From: Gemmatimonadaceae bacterium
GTDB lineage: Bacteria; Gemmatimonadota; Gemmatimonadetes; Gemmatimonadales; Gemmatimonadaceae
Reading direction: 5' to 3'
Length of the DNA stretch: 64,000 nucleotides
Assembly (NCBI GenBank): GCA_036003045.1
Contig: DASYSS010000085.1
Coordinates: forward strand, 124,001-188,000
A program made the translations under genes and the position numbers. This document shows positions 43,302 through 51,041 of this stretch, piece after piece. Below the pieces are notes generated by a model. The model did no database searches, was not told where the DNA came from, and saw only the letters and a program-made list of their open reading frames with translations. Positions within the stretch are counted from its first letter, which is position 1. Each line of letters begins with the position of its first letter.

Positions 43302-46300
43302 TCAGTGCAGGACGATCGGGGTCGCCATCTCGCGGAAGCGGCAGAGCGCGTTCGCGAGCTGCATTTGGCGCGGAGTGCGGCACTCGACGTCGAGCAGACG
43401 CGATGAGGCGACGAGGATCGCCAGGCATTTCGCGCGCGACGTCGCGACGTTCAGACGGTTCAGGCTGAGCAAGAACTCCATTCCGCGCGGCGCTTCGTCC
43501 GGGCTCGACGTAGCCATGGAGTAGATGACGACAGGTGCCTGCTGTCCCTGAAACCTGTCGACCGTCCCGACGCGCACGCCGGTCGCGGAGAGACGACCCG
43601 CCAAGCGAGTCACGTGAGCATTGTACGGCGCCACGACGACGATGCCCGAACCGAGGAGTCGTTCGGCGTCGCCATCGGCGTTCGTCCACGTCGTGCCATG
43701 GGCTCCGAGGCGTTGGATCAACGCCGTGACGGCTTCGACCTCTTCGGGCGAGTAGTTCCGATTTCCGTCGTGCTCCACCGGCACGACGGCGAGCCCGGCC
43801 TCGGGAAGTCCATCCACGCCGGAAATTCGCTGGTTCTCGAGCCCGACGTGCGACTTCAACAGCCCGTCGTAAAAGACCTCCGAGGTGAAGCGACAGATGC
43901 TCGGCGCAAGCCGCCACGTCTCCCGCAAGAAGATTCCGCGGTCTTCAGCGATGGTCTGTCGTCCGGCCAACACGTGCTCGAGCGCGGATACCTCGACGCC
44001 GTGCGGATGAGATCCTTTCCGCGGCTGCTCGAGCTGTTGCGGATCGCCGAGCAGGACGACGCTTTTCGCCGCCTGTGAGACGGCGAGAACGTTGGCGAGG
44101 GACATCTGACCCGCCTCGTCCACGAAGAGCAGATCGACCGCGCCGGCGAACTCCTCGCGCGACCACAGCCACGCTGTTCCGCCAAGGACGCTTACCTCGC
44201 CGCGGACGATCGCACCGTGCGCGTCCTTGTTGTTGTCGATGCAACGGACGCTTCTCGAGGGTTCGCCTTCGTCGCACCGATGCGCGACGGCTATGCTCAC
44301 CCCCCTCGCCGTCGCCTCCTCGATCACTGAATCCAGAAGCAGGCGAATCACCTTGTGGCTGTTCGCGACCACGCCGATTCGCTTTCCCTCTCGCACCAGC
44401 GAGCAAATCATGCGCGCGCCAAGGAACGTCTTTCCCGCTCCAGGCGGTCCCTGAATCGGCAGCACCGTGCGATCGAGAGCGGGGGCAACGCGAAGCGCCC
44501 TGTCGGGCGGAGACTCGCCTACCTTGACGTCGAATTGGCCTCCTGTCGCCGAAAGGCGCGGCGCTTCGCCTCGAAGTAGTGCGAGCGCGGCGCCATAGTC
44601 CTCTCGGCCCGAGGCGACGGACTCGCCGATGCGAGACAGCGAGTCCGCCATCTCGTCGGTGTTCACGTGCGAGAACGCACACACCGCCGTCGGATGGATC
44701 TCAGCGCGCGCCTTCTTCTTCTTGATCTCGATCGTGTGTGCGAGGCGGTCGATCGAAACGACCTCTCCGAACCCCTTCTTGTCGGAGAGCCACAGCTCGT
44801 CGCCGGGACCGATCTCGGTTTCTTGTGGCGGGAAAGCGTATCGATCAACGACCGTGCCGGTCTCCTTCCCGCTCTTCTTGTGCCGCACGATTTCGACACG
44901 GCCGTCGAACTCCAGGCCGGCGACGGCTTCGGGCTTGTCGTACAGGTCTTCGTCCGGCGACTCGCACAGTCGAAAATGCGTCGCCCAACCAACACGATCT
45001 TCACGGCGGTGATAGTCGAGGCTGTACGCAAGCAGCCAGCGCGCCTGTTGCGACGCGTTCCGGTCGGCCGGCGACTCGGCGACTCCGTTCAGCAGACGAG
45101 CGCGAAGCGCCTCGACGGCCTGCGCCCGTTCGTCGACTTTTGGCGGCGCTTTGCCGTCGGACGGATCGCGCGGTGGACGAGGGATCCACGCGCCCGATCG
45201 GATCTGGCGTTCGCGAACAGCCTCGAGCCAATCGCGCAGCGCGAGCGTCGACGCGCAGTCGTCGCGATTGTAGCCTTCGACCGTCGTTCGCGCTTCCGCC
45301 GGCAGGTCGTGAATGGCGCCGGATTCGAGGGCGTACTCGACGTCACGCAAGCGGCGGTTCGCGTCCTCGAGCGCGATCTGCCGCTTGAAACCGTAGAGCG
45401 TTTCGAGGCTCTTGATCGAGTAACGCTCGACACCGATGCGCATCGATTGGCGGACGACAGCGTACAGATCGATGAATCGCCCGGCGCGAAGCATCGCTTC
45501 GAATTCACGTTCGCGCGTGGCGTAGCGGCCCATCAGCCTCGTAAACGCGGCCGGCTCGTACGGGGCGTAGTGGTACACATGCATTTCCGGATGGGCACGA
45601 GCGGCCTCGATCATCCGATCGATCACGCCCTCGAACACGCGATGCTCCTCGGCGTCGGTCAGCGCCCACCTCGAGTCGCAGGAGCCGTCTGCCGCGACGA
45701 CCCCGAACAGATACTCGCGCCCGGCCTCGCCGACGAACGGGTCGCCTTCGAGGTCGAGGAACAGATCTCCGGGCGATGGCTCTGGCAGGCGACAAAGCCC
45801 CTTTGTCTCTTTGATCTCCAGCAGCTCGTGCGCCGGGACCGCGGCGCCGCGCGAAGCCAGCTGAAGCCGTGCCTGGTCGTGCACGCGTTCGTAGGCGCGC
45901 AACGAGTCGCGCCGCGGCTTGAAGGGGAGCGGCGAAGCGGCGTTCGCGAGCTGGACGAGCTTCTCGATGCCATGTTCCTGAAGCTCTCGTCGCTGGCCTC
46001 GCGAGATCCCCGCGACGAGAGACAGATGGTCGTCGGCGCGGCGTTTGTCGGCGCAGGTCTTTCGCCAACGACAAACGTCGCACTGCTCCACCGGCTCCGG
46101 ATAGTTCGCCGCGGCGAGCGGCTCATCGCCGATCGCCACGGCGAGCACCAGCTTGTCGCGCACCATACGGAAGTACGCCGCGTAGTCGTTCACGCGGTAA
46201 CTCTCGACGTTCATTCCGGCCGTCGGCGTGACGACGTGAAACGAGTCGGGCATCACCCCCTGCTCCTGAGCGAGCAGGTCCGAGTAGAGGCTCAGTTGGA

Positions 46301-46736
46301 GGATCGTCCCCCCCTTCGTCTCTCGCGCGAGCTTCGTGTCGTAGACCTCATAGGACCACGAGCCGAGCGCGCTCGGCTGCTCGACTCGCCGGAGAATGTC
46401 GGGGCGGCCATTCCATATGCCGTCGGCGAACGCCCCTTGCACGATGACGTCGGCGCCCTCGCGCATCGCGGCCTCCGTCTTCGCGAGACGCTCGGCGTTG
46501 TGATCGATCCCGGCGAGATCGACGACGCTCGCGTTTCCAGTCCGCAAACTGTCGACGAATCGCCGCTCGTGCTCGAGCCCTCGTTGAATCAGAAGCTCGA
46601 GGAGCGGATCGCTCTGATAGACCGGCTCGCGCTTGCCGAGCGCCACGGCCATGTCGAGCGCCGTGCGATGTTTGCAGCCGAGGAAGCTCGAGAGGTCGGT
46701 TGCGGAGAGCGCGAACTCGCCGTCGCGGACATGCAC
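43302..46736 (-). CDS. TM0106-family RecB-like nuclease fused to SF1 helicase
   Basis: The 1144-residue protein has three parts. Residues about 10-270 are a RecB/Cas4-like PD-(D/E)xK nuclease with the lysine in YDTKLARETKGG and cysteines (LGCKHRT, QCDVCRWRKTCADKR) that could bind a 4Fe-4S cluster. The middle is an RNase H-like domain starting DLFLDLEGDPF and ending with YNRDDCASTLAL. The C-terminal third is an SF1 helicase with GPPGAGKTFLGAR, DLLFVDEAGQM, GDPQQLEQP and TVDRFQGQQAPV. The GTG at 46736 is chosen; the longer frame is antisense shadow in the DUF72 gene. It follows Ku and DUF72 in one operon. Confidence 0.92.
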   Translation of the reverse strand: MHVRDGEFALSATDLSSFLGCKHRTALDMAVALGKREPVYQSDPLLELLIQRGLEHERRFVDSLRTGNASVVDLAGIDHNAERLAKTEAAMREGADVIVQGAFADGIWNGRPDILRRVEQPSALGSWSYEVYDTKLARETKGGTILQLSLYSDLLAQEQGVMPDSFHVVTPTAGMNVESYRVNDYAAYFRMVRDKLVLAVAIGDEPLAAANYPEPVEQCDVCRWRKTCADKRRADDHLSLVAGISRGQRRELQEHGIEKLVQLANAASPLPFKPRRDSLRAYERVHDQARLQLASRGAAVPAHELLEIKETKGLCRLPEPSPGDLFLDLEGDPFVGEAGREYLFGVVAADGSCDSRWALTDAEEHRVFEGVIDRMIEAARAHPEMHVYHYAPYEPAAFTRLMGRYATREREFEAMLRAGRFIDLYAVVRQSMRIGVERYSIKSLETLYGFKRQIALEDANRRLRDVEYALESGAIHDLPAEARTTVEGYNRDDCASTLALRDWLEAVRERQIRSGAWIPRPPRDPSDGKAPPKVDERAQAVEALRARLLNGVAESPADRNASQQARWLLAYSLDYHRREDRVGWATHFRLCESPDEDLYDKPEAVAGLEFDGRVEIVRHKKSGKETGTVVDRYAFPPQETEIGPGDELWLSDKKGFGEVVSIDRLAHTIEIKKKKARAEIHPTAVCAFSHVNTDEMADSLSRIGESVASGREDYGAALALLRGEAPRLSATGGQFDVKVGESPPDRALRVAPALDRTVLPIQGPPGAGKTFLGARMICSLVREGKRIGVVANSHKVIRLLLDSVIEEATARGVSIAVAHRCDEGEPSRSVRCIDNNKDAHGAIVRGEVSVLGGTAWLWSREEFAGAVDLLFVDEAGQMSLANVLAVSQAAKSVVLLGDPQQLEQPRKGSHPHGVEVSALEHVLAGRQTIAEDRGIFLRETWRLAPSICRFTSEVFYDGLLKSHVGLENQRISGVDGLPEAGLAVVPVEHDGNRNYSPEEVEAVTALIQRLGAHGTTWTNADGDAERLLGSGIVVVAPYNAHVTRLAGRLSATGVRVGTVDRFQGQQAPVVIYSMATSSPDEAPRGMEFLLSLNRLNVATSRAKCLAILVASSRLLDVECRTPRQMQLANALCRFREMATPIVLH

Positions 46737-46756
46737 GGTGGGAGGCCGCGATCGCG

Positions 46757-47473
46757 TTAGACGGTCGGCGCCTTGTCGAACGCTTCGACGAATGCGTCGA
46801 CCGCGGGCGGGCCGGACCCGATCCCTTCGTCGTGCTTGAAGTACACGAACGCGTCGCTCCACGGCTGCCCCGCGATGCGCTTGCTCCATTCCTCGAGCAG
46901 CGCGGCGTCGTAGTCGAGCCGGTGAAGCCGCACGTAGCCCCAGCCGGCCGTCGTCACGAACGGCGACGCGAAATCCGGCTGCTCGGTGACGCACATCGGA
47001 ATGTCGCGTTCACGCAGCACGGCATACACCTCGTCGTCGAACCAACTCTCGTGGCGAAATTCGACCGTGTAGCGGCGGTCCGTCGGAAGCGTCGCGACGA
47101 ACGCGCGCAGACGCGCCACGTCGATTTTCAGATTCGGGGGAAGCTGAAACAAGATCGGTCCGAGCCGCGCGCCGAGCGCCGACGTGTTCTTGAGGAGAAA
47201 CTCGGTGGCGCTCGCGGCGTCGGGCTTGAGCCGCGCGAAATGCGTGATCCGCTGGCTGGCCTTGATCGCGAACGTGAACGGTTCGGGCACCTGCGACGCC
47301 CAGTCGAGCAGCACGTGCTCGCGGGGGAGCCGATAGAACGTGTTGTTGATCTCGACGGTCGGAAATCGCCCGGCGTAGAAGCCGAGCATCGCGTCGTCCT
47401 TGAGATCAGCCGGGTAGAACGGCCCTTTCCATTCCTTGAAAGCAAAACCGCTCGTTCCAGCGAGCAGCTTCAT
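46757..47473 (-). CDS. DUF72 (YecE-like) family protein
   Basis: This 238-residue protein has a TIM-barrel-like DUF72 fold. It begins LLAGTSGFAFKEWKGPFYP, then FPTVEINNTFYRLP, FTFAIKASQRITHF and a C-terminal YVRLHRLDYD and DAFVYFKHDEGIGSGP, all family hallmarks. The biochemical function is unknown; catalysis by a TIM barrel is assumed. Its start overlaps the Ku stop (ATGA) and the TM0106 gene starts 20 bases later. The association with Ku and a nuclease-helicase hints at a DNA-linked role. Confidence 0.92.
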   Translation of the reverse strand: MKLLAGTSGFAFKEWKGPFYPADLKDDAMLGFYAGRFPTVEINNTFYRLPREHVLLDWASQVPEPFTFAIKASQRITHFARLKPDAASATEFLLKNTSALGARLGPILFQLPPNLKIDVARLRAFVATLPTDRRYTVEFRHESWFDDEVYAVLRERDIPMCVTEQPDFASPFVTTAGWGYVRLHRLDYDAALLEEWSKRIAGQPWSDAFVYFKHDEGIGSGPPAVDAFVEAFDKAPTV

Positions 47474-48309
47474 GCCGATTTCGCCCGGCGCCTCTTGTGA
47501 GGCTTCTCTTCCTCCTCCTCTTCTTTGTTCGCCGCCTTGGCTTCGCTCAGACTCGCCTTGAGCGCTTCCATGAGGTCGATGATCTTGCCGCCGCGCTCGG
47601 CCGGCGCCTCCTCGGTGATCTCCTGGCCCTGGATCTTCGCCTCGATCGCCTCGAGCTGACGCTCGCGCACGGTGTCCTTGTATTTCTCGGGCGTGAAGTC
47701 GTCGCTCGCCGACTGCTCGATGAGCTGCTTGGCGAGATTCAGCTCGGCGGGTTTCACCGTTCCTTCGGGGACTTCGACCTGCGTCGTCGGGCGCAGCTCG
47801 TCGGCGTAGTGGAGCTGCTCCATCACCATCACGCCGTTGAGCGGGCGCAGGAGCACGAGGTGCTGCGCGCCTCGCGCCGCGTATTGCCCGAGCGCGGCCT
47901 TGCCGGTCTCTTCCAGCGCCGCGACGAGGAGCCGGTACGCACGATCGCCGCCCTTGTCCGGCCCGAGGTAGTACGTCTTGTCGAGGTACTCGCGATCGAC
48001 CTTCGCCAGCGGCACGAACTCAGTGATGTCGATCGTGTTCGTCGCCTTTTCGTCGAGCGCCTTGAGCTCTTCGGGCGTGAGGATCACATAGTGGTCCTTC
48101 GAGACCTCGTAGCCTTTGACCATCTGGTCGCGCGTTACGAGCTCGTTGTCCTTCGAGCAGATGTACTGCTGCTTGAGACGCGCGCCGTCCTTCTTGTGCA
48201 GCAGGTTGAACGAGATGTTGGCCTTCGACTCGGCTGCTGAAAACAGACTCACGGGCACGGAGACGAGGCCGAACGAGATGGTGGCCGTGCCGATGGCGCG
48301 TGCAGGCAT
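47470..48309 (-). CDS. ku: Non-homologous end-joining protein Ku
   Basis: Ku forms a ring on double-strand DNA ends and recruits LigD. The 279-residue protein begins MPARAIGTATISFGLVSVPV, the invariant bacterial Ku start. KQQYICSKDNELVTRDQMVK, LLVAALEETGKAALGQ and VLLRPLNGVMVMEQLHY follow. The C-terminus is a charged tail (EEEEEE then KPHKRRRAKSA) of the kind that binds DNA or LigD. The ATG at 48309 is fixed by the family; the longer frame is rejected. It leads the operon Ku-DUF72-TM0106 and is divergent from LigD across 137 bases. Confidence 0.96.
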   Translation of the reverse strand: MPARAIGTATISFGLVSVPVSLFSAAESKANISFNLLHKKDGARLKQQYICSKDNELVTRDQMVKGYEVSKDHYVILTPEELKALDEKATNTIDITEFVPLAKVDREYLDKTYYLGPDKGGDRAYRLLVAALEETGKAALGQYAARGAQHLVLLRPLNGVMVMEQLHYADELRPTTQVEVPEGTVKPAELNLAKQLIEQSASDDFTPEKYKDTVRERQLEAIEAKIQGQEITEEAPAERGGKIIDLMEALKASLSEAKAANKEEEEEEKPHKRRRAKSA

Positions 48310-48446
48310 AGGGGTCCGGGAAAGAGCTGAGGTGGTCGAGGACGTTGGTCGAGATCGTGCAGCGACGCAAGAGTACGGCGGCGGGGAGGCGCGCTGGCCT
48401 CGCCCGGCAGGACTCCATAGGTTCACCGCCCAAGCGAAACATCCCT

Positions 48447-51041
48447 GTGACGGCAAGTAGCGACGACGAACGACCGGTAGACAACCTCAGCGCGTACCGT
48501 GCCAAGCGGTCCCCGGATACGACACCGGAACCGATGGGCACGGTGTCGGCCGTGCCGGGGCGCCTGTTCGTCGTCCACAAGCACGCCGCGCGGCGTTTGC
48601 ACTTCGACCTCCGCCTCGAGATGGACGGCGTTCTGCGCTCGTGGGCCGTGCCGAAAGGGCCGTCGTACGACATGAAGGACAAGCGGCTCGCCGTGAAGGT
48701 CGAGGATCACCCACTCGAGTACGGAGATTTCGAGGGAGTGATCCCGGAGGGCAACTACGGCGCGGGCGGCGTCATCGTGTGGGACCGCGGCGAGTGGATC
48801 CCGCTCGAGGATTGGCGCGAGGGTCTCGCCAAAGGGAAACTCCTCTTCGAGCTGCGCGGCTACAAGCTTCACGGCAACTGGACGCTCGTGAAGATGAAGA
48901 AGAGCGAAAAGGACTGGCTGCTGATCAAGGAGCGAGACGCGTACGTCAAGTCGCCCGGCGACCAGTTCGAGGAGACGTCGGTTCTGTCCGGGCTGACGGT
49001 CGACGAAGTGAAGCTCGGTCGCAGTCCCGTCGCCGATCTACGCCAAGCCGTCGAAGCCGTCAAGGCGCCGCGCCACCGGGTCGACCCGAAAACCGTCGAG
49101 CCGATGTTGGCCGAATCGACGGACAAGGCGTTCACCCGCGACGACTGGCTGTTCGAGCTCAAGCTCGACGGTTATCGGCTGATCGCGAGCAAGTCGCGCG
49201 GCAAATCGATGCTCGTCACGCGCAAGGGGAACGACTACACCGCCGTATTTCCCGAAGTCGCGCGCGCGCTGGAGGCGCTCCCGTTCGACGAGATCATCAT
49301 CGATGGCGAAGTCGTTTGCCTCGACGACGCAGGCAAGCCGAGCTTCGCCCGACTCCAGCAGCGCGGCACACTGCACAATCCGGCGGAGATCAAGCGTGCG
49401 GCCGTCGAGCTGCCGGCGACCTTCTTCGCGTTCGACTTTCTCGCGTTCGAGGACTTTGATCTCCGGCCGCTTCCGCTCAAGGTTCGCAAAGCGCTGCTCT
49501 TGTCGGCGCTGCCCAAGCTCGGGGCGATCCATCCGCTCGACCACATCGAGGGCGAGGGCGAGGCGTTTCTCGCGCAGGTCGAGAAGATGGGGCTCGAGGG
49601 CATTCTCGCGAAACGCGCCGACGCATCCTATCGCGCGGGGCGCAGTGATCTCTGGCTCAAGATCAAAGCCGAAAAGAGCGACGACTTCGTGATCGTCGGC
49701 TTCACGAGCCCCAAAGGGAGCCGGTCGAGCCTCGGCGCGCTGCAACTCGCGGATTTTGTGGACGGAGCGCTCGTGTACTCGGGGCGGGTCGGCACCGGAT
49801 TCAACGACTCGTTGCTCGAGGAGCTCGCGTCGATGTTCGAGTCGATCATTCGTGAGACGCCGCCTTGTGGTCCGCCGATCCGCACCGATAGCGGCGCGAC
49901 GGCCGCCGTCATTCCCGAGACGAAGACGACGACGTGGGTCGAAGCGGTCAACGTGTGCGAAGTGCGCTTTCGCGAGTGGACGCCGGACGGCGTGCTGCGC
50001 CACGCGGCCTTCCTTCGCATGCGCTATGACAAGGATCCGCGCGAGTGCGTACGCCAGGGCACAACGCCCGCGCCCTCGAATGCGGCGACGCCGGCCCCGA
50101 CTGGAGTCGAAGAGCCGCCACCGCCGCTGAAACCCGCGCCGGTCGAGAAGGCCTTCAACTTCTCGAATCTCAAGAAGGTTTATTGGCCGAAGGAGCATTA
50201 CACCAAGGGCGATCTCGTCGAGTACTATCGCGCGATCTCGCCGTGGATGCTGCCGTATCTGCGCAACCGCCCGCTGGTGATGACGCGCTTCCCCGACGGC
50301 ATCGAGGGCAAGCAGTTCTATCAGAAAGACGCGCCCGAATTCGCCCCGTCGTGGATCGAGACGATTCCCATATGGAGCGAGGACACGCAGCGAGACATCA
50401 AATACTTTGTCGCCAACGACGTCGAGTCGCTGCTCTACGTCGCCAACCTCGGCTCGATTCCGATCCACATCTGGAACAGCCGCGTCGGTTCGCTCGAGCA
50501 GCCCGATTGGTGCGTGATCGACCTCGACCCGAAAGAGGCGCCCTTCTCCGACGTGATCAAGTGCGCCGTCGTCTTCAAGGCATTGACGGATGTCATCGGC
50601 CTGCCGAGCTACATCAAGACGACCGGCAAGACGGGACTCCACATCATGATTCCGCTCGGCCGGCAGCTGACGTACGCGCAGTGTCGCACGATGGGCGAGC
50701 TGCTCGCGCGCGTCGCGCTGCGCGAGCTCGATCCCATCGCGACGATCACGCGTCACGTGAGCAAGCGCGGCGACAAGGTGTACCTCGACTATCTGCAGAA
50801 CCGCCACGGCCAGCTGATCGTCGCGCCGTTCTGCGTGCGGCCGCTGCCCGGAGCGACCGTTTCGATGCCGCTCCTTTGGGACGAGGTGAACAAGGACCTC
50901 AACCCGAAGGACTACACGATCAAGAACGCGATCGAGCGGATGGAAGCGCTGAAGAGCGATCCGTTGCTGCCCGTTCTCGACGACAAACCGAACCTCGCCG
51001 AGGTCCTCGAGAAGCTCGCTGGAATGATGAACGGCGATTAA
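48447..51041 (+). CDS. ligD: Multifunctional ATP-dependent DNA ligase LigD (phosphoesterase-ligase-polymerase)
   Basis: This 864-residue enzyme repairs double-strand breaks with Ku. Domain order is 3'-phosphoesterase (about 20-175; FVVHKHAARRLHFDLRLEMD, FEGVIPEGNYGAG), ligase (about 215-520; nucleotidyl lysine in FELKLDGYRLI, IDGEVVCLD, EGILAKRAD, DLWLKIK) and primase-like polymerase (about 590-860; MLPYLRNRPLVMTRFPDG, VIDLDPKE, TGKTGLHIMIPL). A Pro-rich linker separates the last two. The GTG at 48447 gives a family-like N-terminus; 34 more codons are open upstream. It lies opposite the Ku operon and shares its promoter region. Confidence 0.94.
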   Translation: MTASSDDERPVDNLSAYRAKRSPDTTPEPMGTVSAVPGRLFVVHKHAARRLHFDLRLEMDGVLRSWAVPKGPSYDMKDKRLAVKVEDHPLEYGDFEGVIPEGNYGAGGVIVWDRGEWIPLEDWREGLAKGKLLFELRGYKLHGNWTLVKMKKSEKDWLLIKERDAYVKSPGDQFEETSVLSGLTVDEVKLGRSPVADLRQAVEAVKAPRHRVDPKTVEPMLAESTDKAFTRDDWLFELKLDGYRLIASKSRGKSMLVTRKGNDYTAVFPEVARALEALPFDEIIIDGEVVCLDDAGKPSFARLQQRGTLHNPAEIKRAAVELPATFFAFDFLAFEDFDLRPLPLKVRKALLLSALPKLGAIHPLDHIEGEGEAFLAQVEKMGLEGILAKRADASYRAGRSDLWLKIKAEKSDDFVIVGFTSPKGSRSSLGALQLADFVDGALVYSGRVGTGFNDSLLEELASMFESIIRETPPCGPPIRTDSGATAAVIPETKTTTWVEAVNVCEVRFREWTPDGVLRHAAFLRMRYDKDPRECVRQGTTPAPSNAATPAPTGVEEPPPPLKPAPVEKAFNFSNLKKVYWPKEHYTKGDLVEYYRAISPWMLPYLRNRPLVMTRFPDGIEGKQFYQKDAPEFAPSWIETIPIWSEDTQRDIKYFVANDVESLLYVANLGSIPIHIWNSRVGSLEQPDWCVIDLDPKEAPFSDVIKCAVVFKALTDVIGLPSYIKTTGKTGLHIMIPLGRQLTYAQCRTMGELLARVALRELDPIATITRHVSKRGDKVYLDYLQNRHGQLIVAPFCVRPLPGATVSMPLLWDEVNKDLNPKDYTIKNAIERMEALKSDPLLPVLDDKPNLAEVLEKLAGMMNGD

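Follow-up and report, generated by a model that had tools for sequence, protein, structure and literature searches.

A DUF72 clade associated with Ku and LigD, and an occasional TM0106-family companion, at bacterial end-joining loci

Gene organization of the locus

The window, a stretch of 64,000 nucleotides from a Gemmatimonadaceae bacterium (GenBank assembly GCA_036003045.1, contig DASYSS010000085.1, positions 124,001 to 188,000), carries genes for Ku, a DUF72 protein, a TM0106-family protein, and LigD (Table 1). The source assembly comprises 5.37 Mb and contains one ku gene. The encoded Ku is a full-length bacterial Ku, scoring above the TIGR02772 equivalog cut-off of 150 bits, and LigD unites phosphoesterase (PE; PF13298), ligase (Lig; PF01068/PF04679), and polymerase (Pol; PF21686) domains in a single open reading frame. 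The DUF72 and TM0106 proteins exceed the PF01904 gathering score (25.3 bits) and the curated TIGR03491 cut-off (97.45 bits), respectively. Judged from these genes, the locus is a bacterial nonhomologous end-joining (NHEJ) locus of the divergent Ku/LigD(PE-Lig-Pol) type.

Table 1. Features of the Ku/LigD locus, in window coordinates
Feature	Coordinates	Strand	Start and stop	Basis
ku, 279 aa, Lys/Arg-rich C-terminal tail	47470..48309	-	ATG 48309 (start codon read from sequence); stop ends 47470	PF02735 169 bits, TIGR02772 283.6 bits
DUF72 (YecE-like), 238 aa, in NHEJ-associated DUF72 clade	46757..47473	-	ATG 47473; stop ends 46757 (re-derived from sequence)	PF01904 193.7 bits
ATGA, 4-base overlap of ku stop and DUF72 start	47470..47473	-		Read from sequence
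TM0106 family (TIGR03491/COG2251), 1144 aa	43302..46736	-	GTG 46736; stop ends 43302	TIGR03491 257.5 bits, PF13482, PF13087, PF13086, PF13604
ligD, 864 aa, domain order PE-Lig-Pol	48447..51041	+	GTG 48447; stop ends 51041	PF13298, PF01068, PF04679, PF21686; TIGR02776 503.7 bits
ku-ligD divergent intergenic region, 137 bases	48310..48446			Presumed site of both promoters

A preliminary description of this DNA had reported that the ku stop codon overlaps the start codon of DUF72, that the TM0106 gene begins 20 bases after DUF72, and that ligD reads away across 137 bases. The gene boundaries bear out this layout in full: the TM0106 start lies exactly 20 bases past the DUF72 stop, and ligD is located outside the ku operon. 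The overlap of ku and DUF72 is a predicted case of translational coupling. A TM0106 start at 46994, within DUF72, was rejected, as it marks only the longest open frame (1230 aa). A sigma-70 scan of the ku-ligD intergenic region found no consensus site, which is weak evidence in Gemmatimonadota. Both Ku and DUF72 of the window have their best matches on a plasmid of Gemmatirosa kalamazoonensis, and the Ku-DUF72 pair of this species resides on a 1-Mb plasmid with a complete record.

The locus shares with the two-component NHEJ systems of, for example, Bacillus, Mycobacterium, and Pseudomonas the adjacent and divergent genes for Ku and a LigD with PE, Lig, and Pol domains. However, it adds an apparently co-translated, clade-specific DUF72 gene as a third gene and TM0106 as a fourth.

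The DUF72 clade and its association with NHEJ loci

DUF72 (YecE) belongs to the widespread bacterial families to which, to our knowledge, no function has yet been assigned. We searched 200 Gemmatimonadota, 149 Acidobacteriota, and 151 Chloroflexota genomes, and in a tree of 68 DUF72 proteins one clade (support 99/96) contained nearly all NHEJ-linked copies of the three phyla. When half of the linked copies were used to build a model, clade members scored 262 bits or more with it, even where a copy was cut by the locus end, and other DUF72 proteins scored 227 bits or less. Clade membership was defined by a position inside the 99/96-supported clade together with a score of at least about 290 bits for model A1, derived from the clade alignment; the window protein was placed inside the clade by the tree and scored 371.4 bits with A1. 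In two Chloroflexota genomes (G432 and G433), the Ku-adjacent DUF72 belongs to another subfamily. One genome (G112; C68, C12) possesses two clade copies, one located by a full ku and the other by a short ku fragment.

In co-occurrence statistics that take phylogeny into account to genus level at most, Ku was present in 94 of the 101 Gemmatimonadota genomes carrying a clade DUF72 versus 28 of the 99 noncarriers (Fisher p 1e-22; n=200), in 51/54 versus 14/38 when these were counted by genus (p 2e-9), and in 28 of 33 Acidobacteriota carriers versus 18 of 116 other genomes of this phylum (p 2e-13). Physical linkage of DUF72 to Ku/LigD overwhelmingly exceeds chance, with 47 clade copies, about half of those in Gemmatimonadota, lying no more than 10 kb from Ku and about 0.6 expected. 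The notion that nearly all clade DUF72 genes are physically linked was discarded, as the unlinked copies had been sampled with a bias and a genome-wide search gave about half.

Extraction of 100 Gemmatimonadota Ku loci, with flanks of up to about 6 kb per side, revealed DUF72 in 38 of them. It occurred at 38 of the 76 loci with Ku and PE-containing LigD on opposite strands and at 0 of the 24 loci of other types. Elsewhere in the genome included, 72 of 76 genomes with a divergent Ku/LigD-PE locus possess a clade DUF72, and the same-genus genomes G144 and G177, with another Ku-LigD type, are without one. Placement of the gene varies from tandem or convergent directly after ku to a position past ligD, and the 4-base Ku/DUF72 overlap is kept at 14 of 20 tandem loci. 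DUF72 was also found at Ku/LigD loci of Acidobacteriota (G339, G294, G321, and G268) and Chloroflexota (G356 and G397). Judging from these sequences, the association of DUF72 with NHEJ is well supported in Gemmatimonadota and Acidobacteriota, extending rarely to Chloroflexota. Since DUF72 accompanies the same repair genes in three phyla, it probably constitutes a third component of the repair machinery.

About half of the Ku-bearing clade carriers have their DUF72 elsewhere in the genome, amid unrelated genes, and the neighborhoods of these unlinked copies displayed no repair theme save one MutS. Seven Gemmatimonadota and five Acidobacteriota carriers were without detected Ku. One of these genomes scored as Ku-less, G015 (L372:3153-7208), has its clade DUF72 next to LigD where the contig ends; in some such carriers, an assembly gap thus probably accounts for the missing Ku. 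According to control lists, members of the DUF72 family as a whole occur in many Ku-less organisms, such as E. coli, and none of six alphaproteobacterial plasmid DUF72 genes was near ku in its annotated neighborhood.

The TM0106-family protein and its linkage

By profile matches and conserved motifs, TM0106 combines a predicted Fe-S RecB-like nuclease, a DnaQ/RNase H-like exonuclease, and an SF1 (Upf1/DNA2-like) helicase. The RecB-type nuclease site is intact (D113, D133-T-K135, and Q147xxxY151), and C21, C219, C222, and C228, the putative cluster cysteines, have the spacing of Fe-S nucleases. The DnaQ-like exonuclease residues (D328-L-E330, D423, and Y489/D493) and the SF1 motifs GPPGxGKT, DEAGQ, GDPQQL, VGTVDxFQGQ, and NVATSRA are present as well. 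These motifs are conserved in 23 aligned homologs, and the nuclease residues and cysteines are invariant in alignment A2. The DnaQ-like PF13482 match covers residues 411 to 590 of the longest open reading frame, corresponding to approximately 325 to 504 of TM0106, and the helicase has PDB matches to Upf1, SMUBP-2, and DNA2. In the literature, COG2251 is counted as a predicted 3'-5' exonuclease that has a PD-(D/E)XK-like domain plus AAA repeats (PMC3985635). DNA2 shares with TM0106/COG2251 the Fe-S RecB-like nuclease and the SF1 helicase of the Upf1/DNA2 group, but in TM0106 an additional DnaQ/RNase H-like domain lies between the two. Structure prediction from a 3-row alignment gave a mean pLDDT of 40.9, too low for structural conclusions.

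TM0106 proteins over the TIGR03491 cut-off were detected in 12 of the 200 Gemmatimonadota genomes, the window genome included; one of the 12 (G016) has TM0106 without Ku, as does G202. Linkage to Ku was found in none of 10 other Ku-bearing Gemmatimonadota, where the two genes are on different contigs or, in G069, more than 1 Mb apart, in none of 15 Chloroflexota genomes with both genes, and in 3 of 9 such Acidobacteriota genomes (G221, G294, and G330). Of the 34 Ku-bearing genomes examined besides that of the window, 31 thus have an unlinked TM0106, a count in which distant linkage could escape notice because some contigs are short. In all three linked Acidobacteriota genomes, Ku and LigD are encoded on one strand and DUF72 followed by TM0106 on the opposite strand, the latter two overlapping as ATGA; LigD is separated from DUF72 by an unrelated gene in G221 and G330.

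In a tree of 51 TM0106 proteins, the linked Acidobacteriota copies form one clade and the window copy is placed elsewhere, with unlinked relatives, the nearest being those of G029 and G026. Therefore, linkage either arose two or more times or arose once and was lost frequently. Transfer of the window gene from the linked Acidobacteriota loci was rejected, as the tree places this gene among unlinked copies from Gemmatimonadota and Acidobacteriota instead. Loose TM0106-Ku linkage outside the window is weak evidence, because it amounts to one independent event versus 0.22 linked genomes expected (P ~0.2); for the tandem DUF72-TM0106 pair, about 0.002 are expected by chance. A conserved NHEJ gene of Gemmatimonadota, as which TM0106 had been considered, is ruled out by the lack of linkage in the 10 other genomes of this phylum. 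Since the Acidobacteriota trio has another arrangement and another tree branch, TM0106 can at most be an optional partner that was recruited repeatedly.

Hence, the Ku-DUF72-TM0106 end-processing module suggested in the preliminary description is partly supported: linkage is very strongly enriched in three phyla for DUF72, but for TM0106 it does not extend to any other Gemmatimonadota or Chloroflexota genome sampled and recurs in three related Acidobacteriota only. TM0106 is a weaker, occasional companion of NHEJ: its geometry recurs in one other lineage, and linkage is rare.

Possible roles of DUF72 and TM0106 in end joining

The only solved relatives that sequence searches found for the window DUF72 are TM1631 (PDB 1vpq; E 1.7e-17) and EF0366. 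From 1vpq, Konc et al. predicted a phosphate- and DNA-binding site and an endonuclease IV-like binding mode without the metals of that enzyme, TM1631 being devoid of a metal-binding catalytic site (PMC3828134). In a study from 2025, DUF72 and SRAP were noted in the neighborhood of polB2, and the fold was described as close to that of UV-damage endonuclease (PMC11791011). In our alignment, TM1631 residues E42, N44, K72, H79, Q114, E143-F144-R145, and R191 correspond to E41, N43, K71, H78, Q110, E138-F139-R140, and R182 of the window protein; all of these predicted binding residues are invariant in the clade, except for the nearly invariant N43. The two proteins thus share the Pfam family and the predicted phosphate-binding residues, but the window DUF72 belongs to a distinct, NHEJ-tied clade, and the function of TM1631 is a computational prediction only. 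Likeness to endonuclease IV and UV-damage endonuclease consists, according to the literature, in the TIM-barrel fold and the predicted binding of bent, damaged DNA. However, DUF72 structures are without a metal site per published work, and Pfam and PDB searches with the window protein returned DUF72 proteins only, with no match to endonuclease IV or UV-damage endonuclease. Structure prediction from a 2-row alignment yielded a mean pLDDT of 41.8, likewise too low for structural conclusions.

Based on the conserved site, the repair context, and the literature predictions, DUF72 is probably a TIM-barrel protein with a conserved phosphate-binding site that processes damaged ends. The statement in the preliminary description that DUF72 is of unknown function was slightly outdated, as a role in DNA damage had already been suggested (PMC3828134, PMC11791011), but we found no paper joining DUF72 with end joining or the Ku protein, or YecE with NHEJ, in a search of papers available without subscription. 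As far as could be searched, DUF72 as a dedicated third NHEJ gene is unreported. The label "end-processing" seems to fit the TM0106 catalytic motifs as well as the binding of damaged DNA predicted for DUF72 in the literature.

We consider it probable, with some reserve, that loci of this kind encode an NHEJ system with a dedicated third component, the clade DUF72 translationally coupled to Ku, and an optional DNA2-like TM0106. The DUF72 TIM barrel would bind the backbone phosphates of DNA that is damaged or unpaired, through a site equivalent to that predicted in TM1631, and would clean or open the Ku-bound ends, after which the PE, Pol, and Lig domains of LigD would complete the join. Ends not directly joinable by Ku and LigD might be unwound and trimmed by TM0106, whose placement behind the clade DUF72 is documented in at least two cases, this genome and one Acidobacteriota lineage. 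Such a DNA2-like unwinding and trimming role is a natural guess from the domains of the protein, and its service to NHEJ draws support from two independent loci only.

Alternatively, DUF72 might be a stand-alone DNA-lesion enzyme, similar to UV-damage endonuclease or endonuclease IV, which came to lie beside ku through shared stress expression and does not act on Ku-bound ends. The occurrence of DUF72 near polB2 and SRAP (PMC11791011), its presence in many Ku-less genomes, and the half of the clade copies not linked to Ku speak for this scenario, as do two viral contigs (L353:2713-4789 and L354:2679-4774), in which DUF72 immediately follows a Y-family (UmuC/DinB-like) polymerase. We nevertheless regard it as unlikely, considering that the clade tracks one NHEJ subtype in 72 of 76 genomes and is absent from all 24 other Ku-LigD loci; a shared regulon alone is disfavored because it would not predict this subtype specificity. 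The PolB2 operons resemble the window locus in having DUF72 by DNA-damage genes, but they represent another polymerase system, without Ku or LigD.

With respect to TM0106, there is a considerable chance, somewhat short of even, that its adjacency to DUF72 in the window is fortuitous and that the module consists of Ku, LigD, and DUF72 only. Its unlinked state in 10 other Ku-bearing Gemmatimonadota and in 15 Chloroflexota, and that of its closest relatives in G029 and G026, is in line with this, but three Acidobacteriota with a coupled DUF72-TM0106 pair by LigD-Ku, whose TM0106 belongs to a different branch, and the very small number of such tandem pairs expected by chance argue against it. That TM0106 is an antiphage or plasmid-defense nuclease-helicase that landed in a repair locus appears highly improbable: the helicase matches the PADLOC models MkoA/MkoC, DpdJ, and PLuB helicase, but mainly over the common SF1 helicase core, and the neighbors of the gene are cyclophilin, DUF72, Ku, and LigD, with no other defense gene adjacent.

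The tie of DUF72 to one type of NHEJ gives this family a concrete, testable role, and it suggests that the textbook two-protein NHEJ of bacteria is incomplete in several phyla. The DUF72-containing system would then be a variant of bacterial NHEJ with a dedicated third gene and an occasional fourth. More tentatively, and with doubts outweighing our confidence, one might envisage three-component NHEJ in several phyla, with DUF72 as a new enzyme, possibly independent of metals, that would repair or cut the damaged ends to which Ku is bound, and with a DNA2-like nuclease-helicase added in some lineages, so that end joining would be assisted by resection in a manner comparable to the end processing of eukaryotes.

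Further genes were observed in the vicinity of ku or DUF72. On a Mesorhizobium plasmid (NZ_CP080533; L359:3765-6753), DUF72 lies about 1.3 kb from a gene for SRAP (SOS response-associated peptidase), comparable to the polB2 neighborhood. A protein with a MerR-type helix-turn-helix and TPRs is encoded directly after ku in L058 (6389-7462) and in some 22 loci like it; most of these seem to belong to one Gemmatimonadota family (f5), in which DUF72 is mostly located elsewhere in the genome. An EVE-domain protein (PF01878) is encoded near ku-ligD in L018 (10841-11347), where it is just past ligD, and in eight similar loci. Five genomes (G187, G147, G178, G141, and G192) possess a tandem ku pair, some of them with a further ku.
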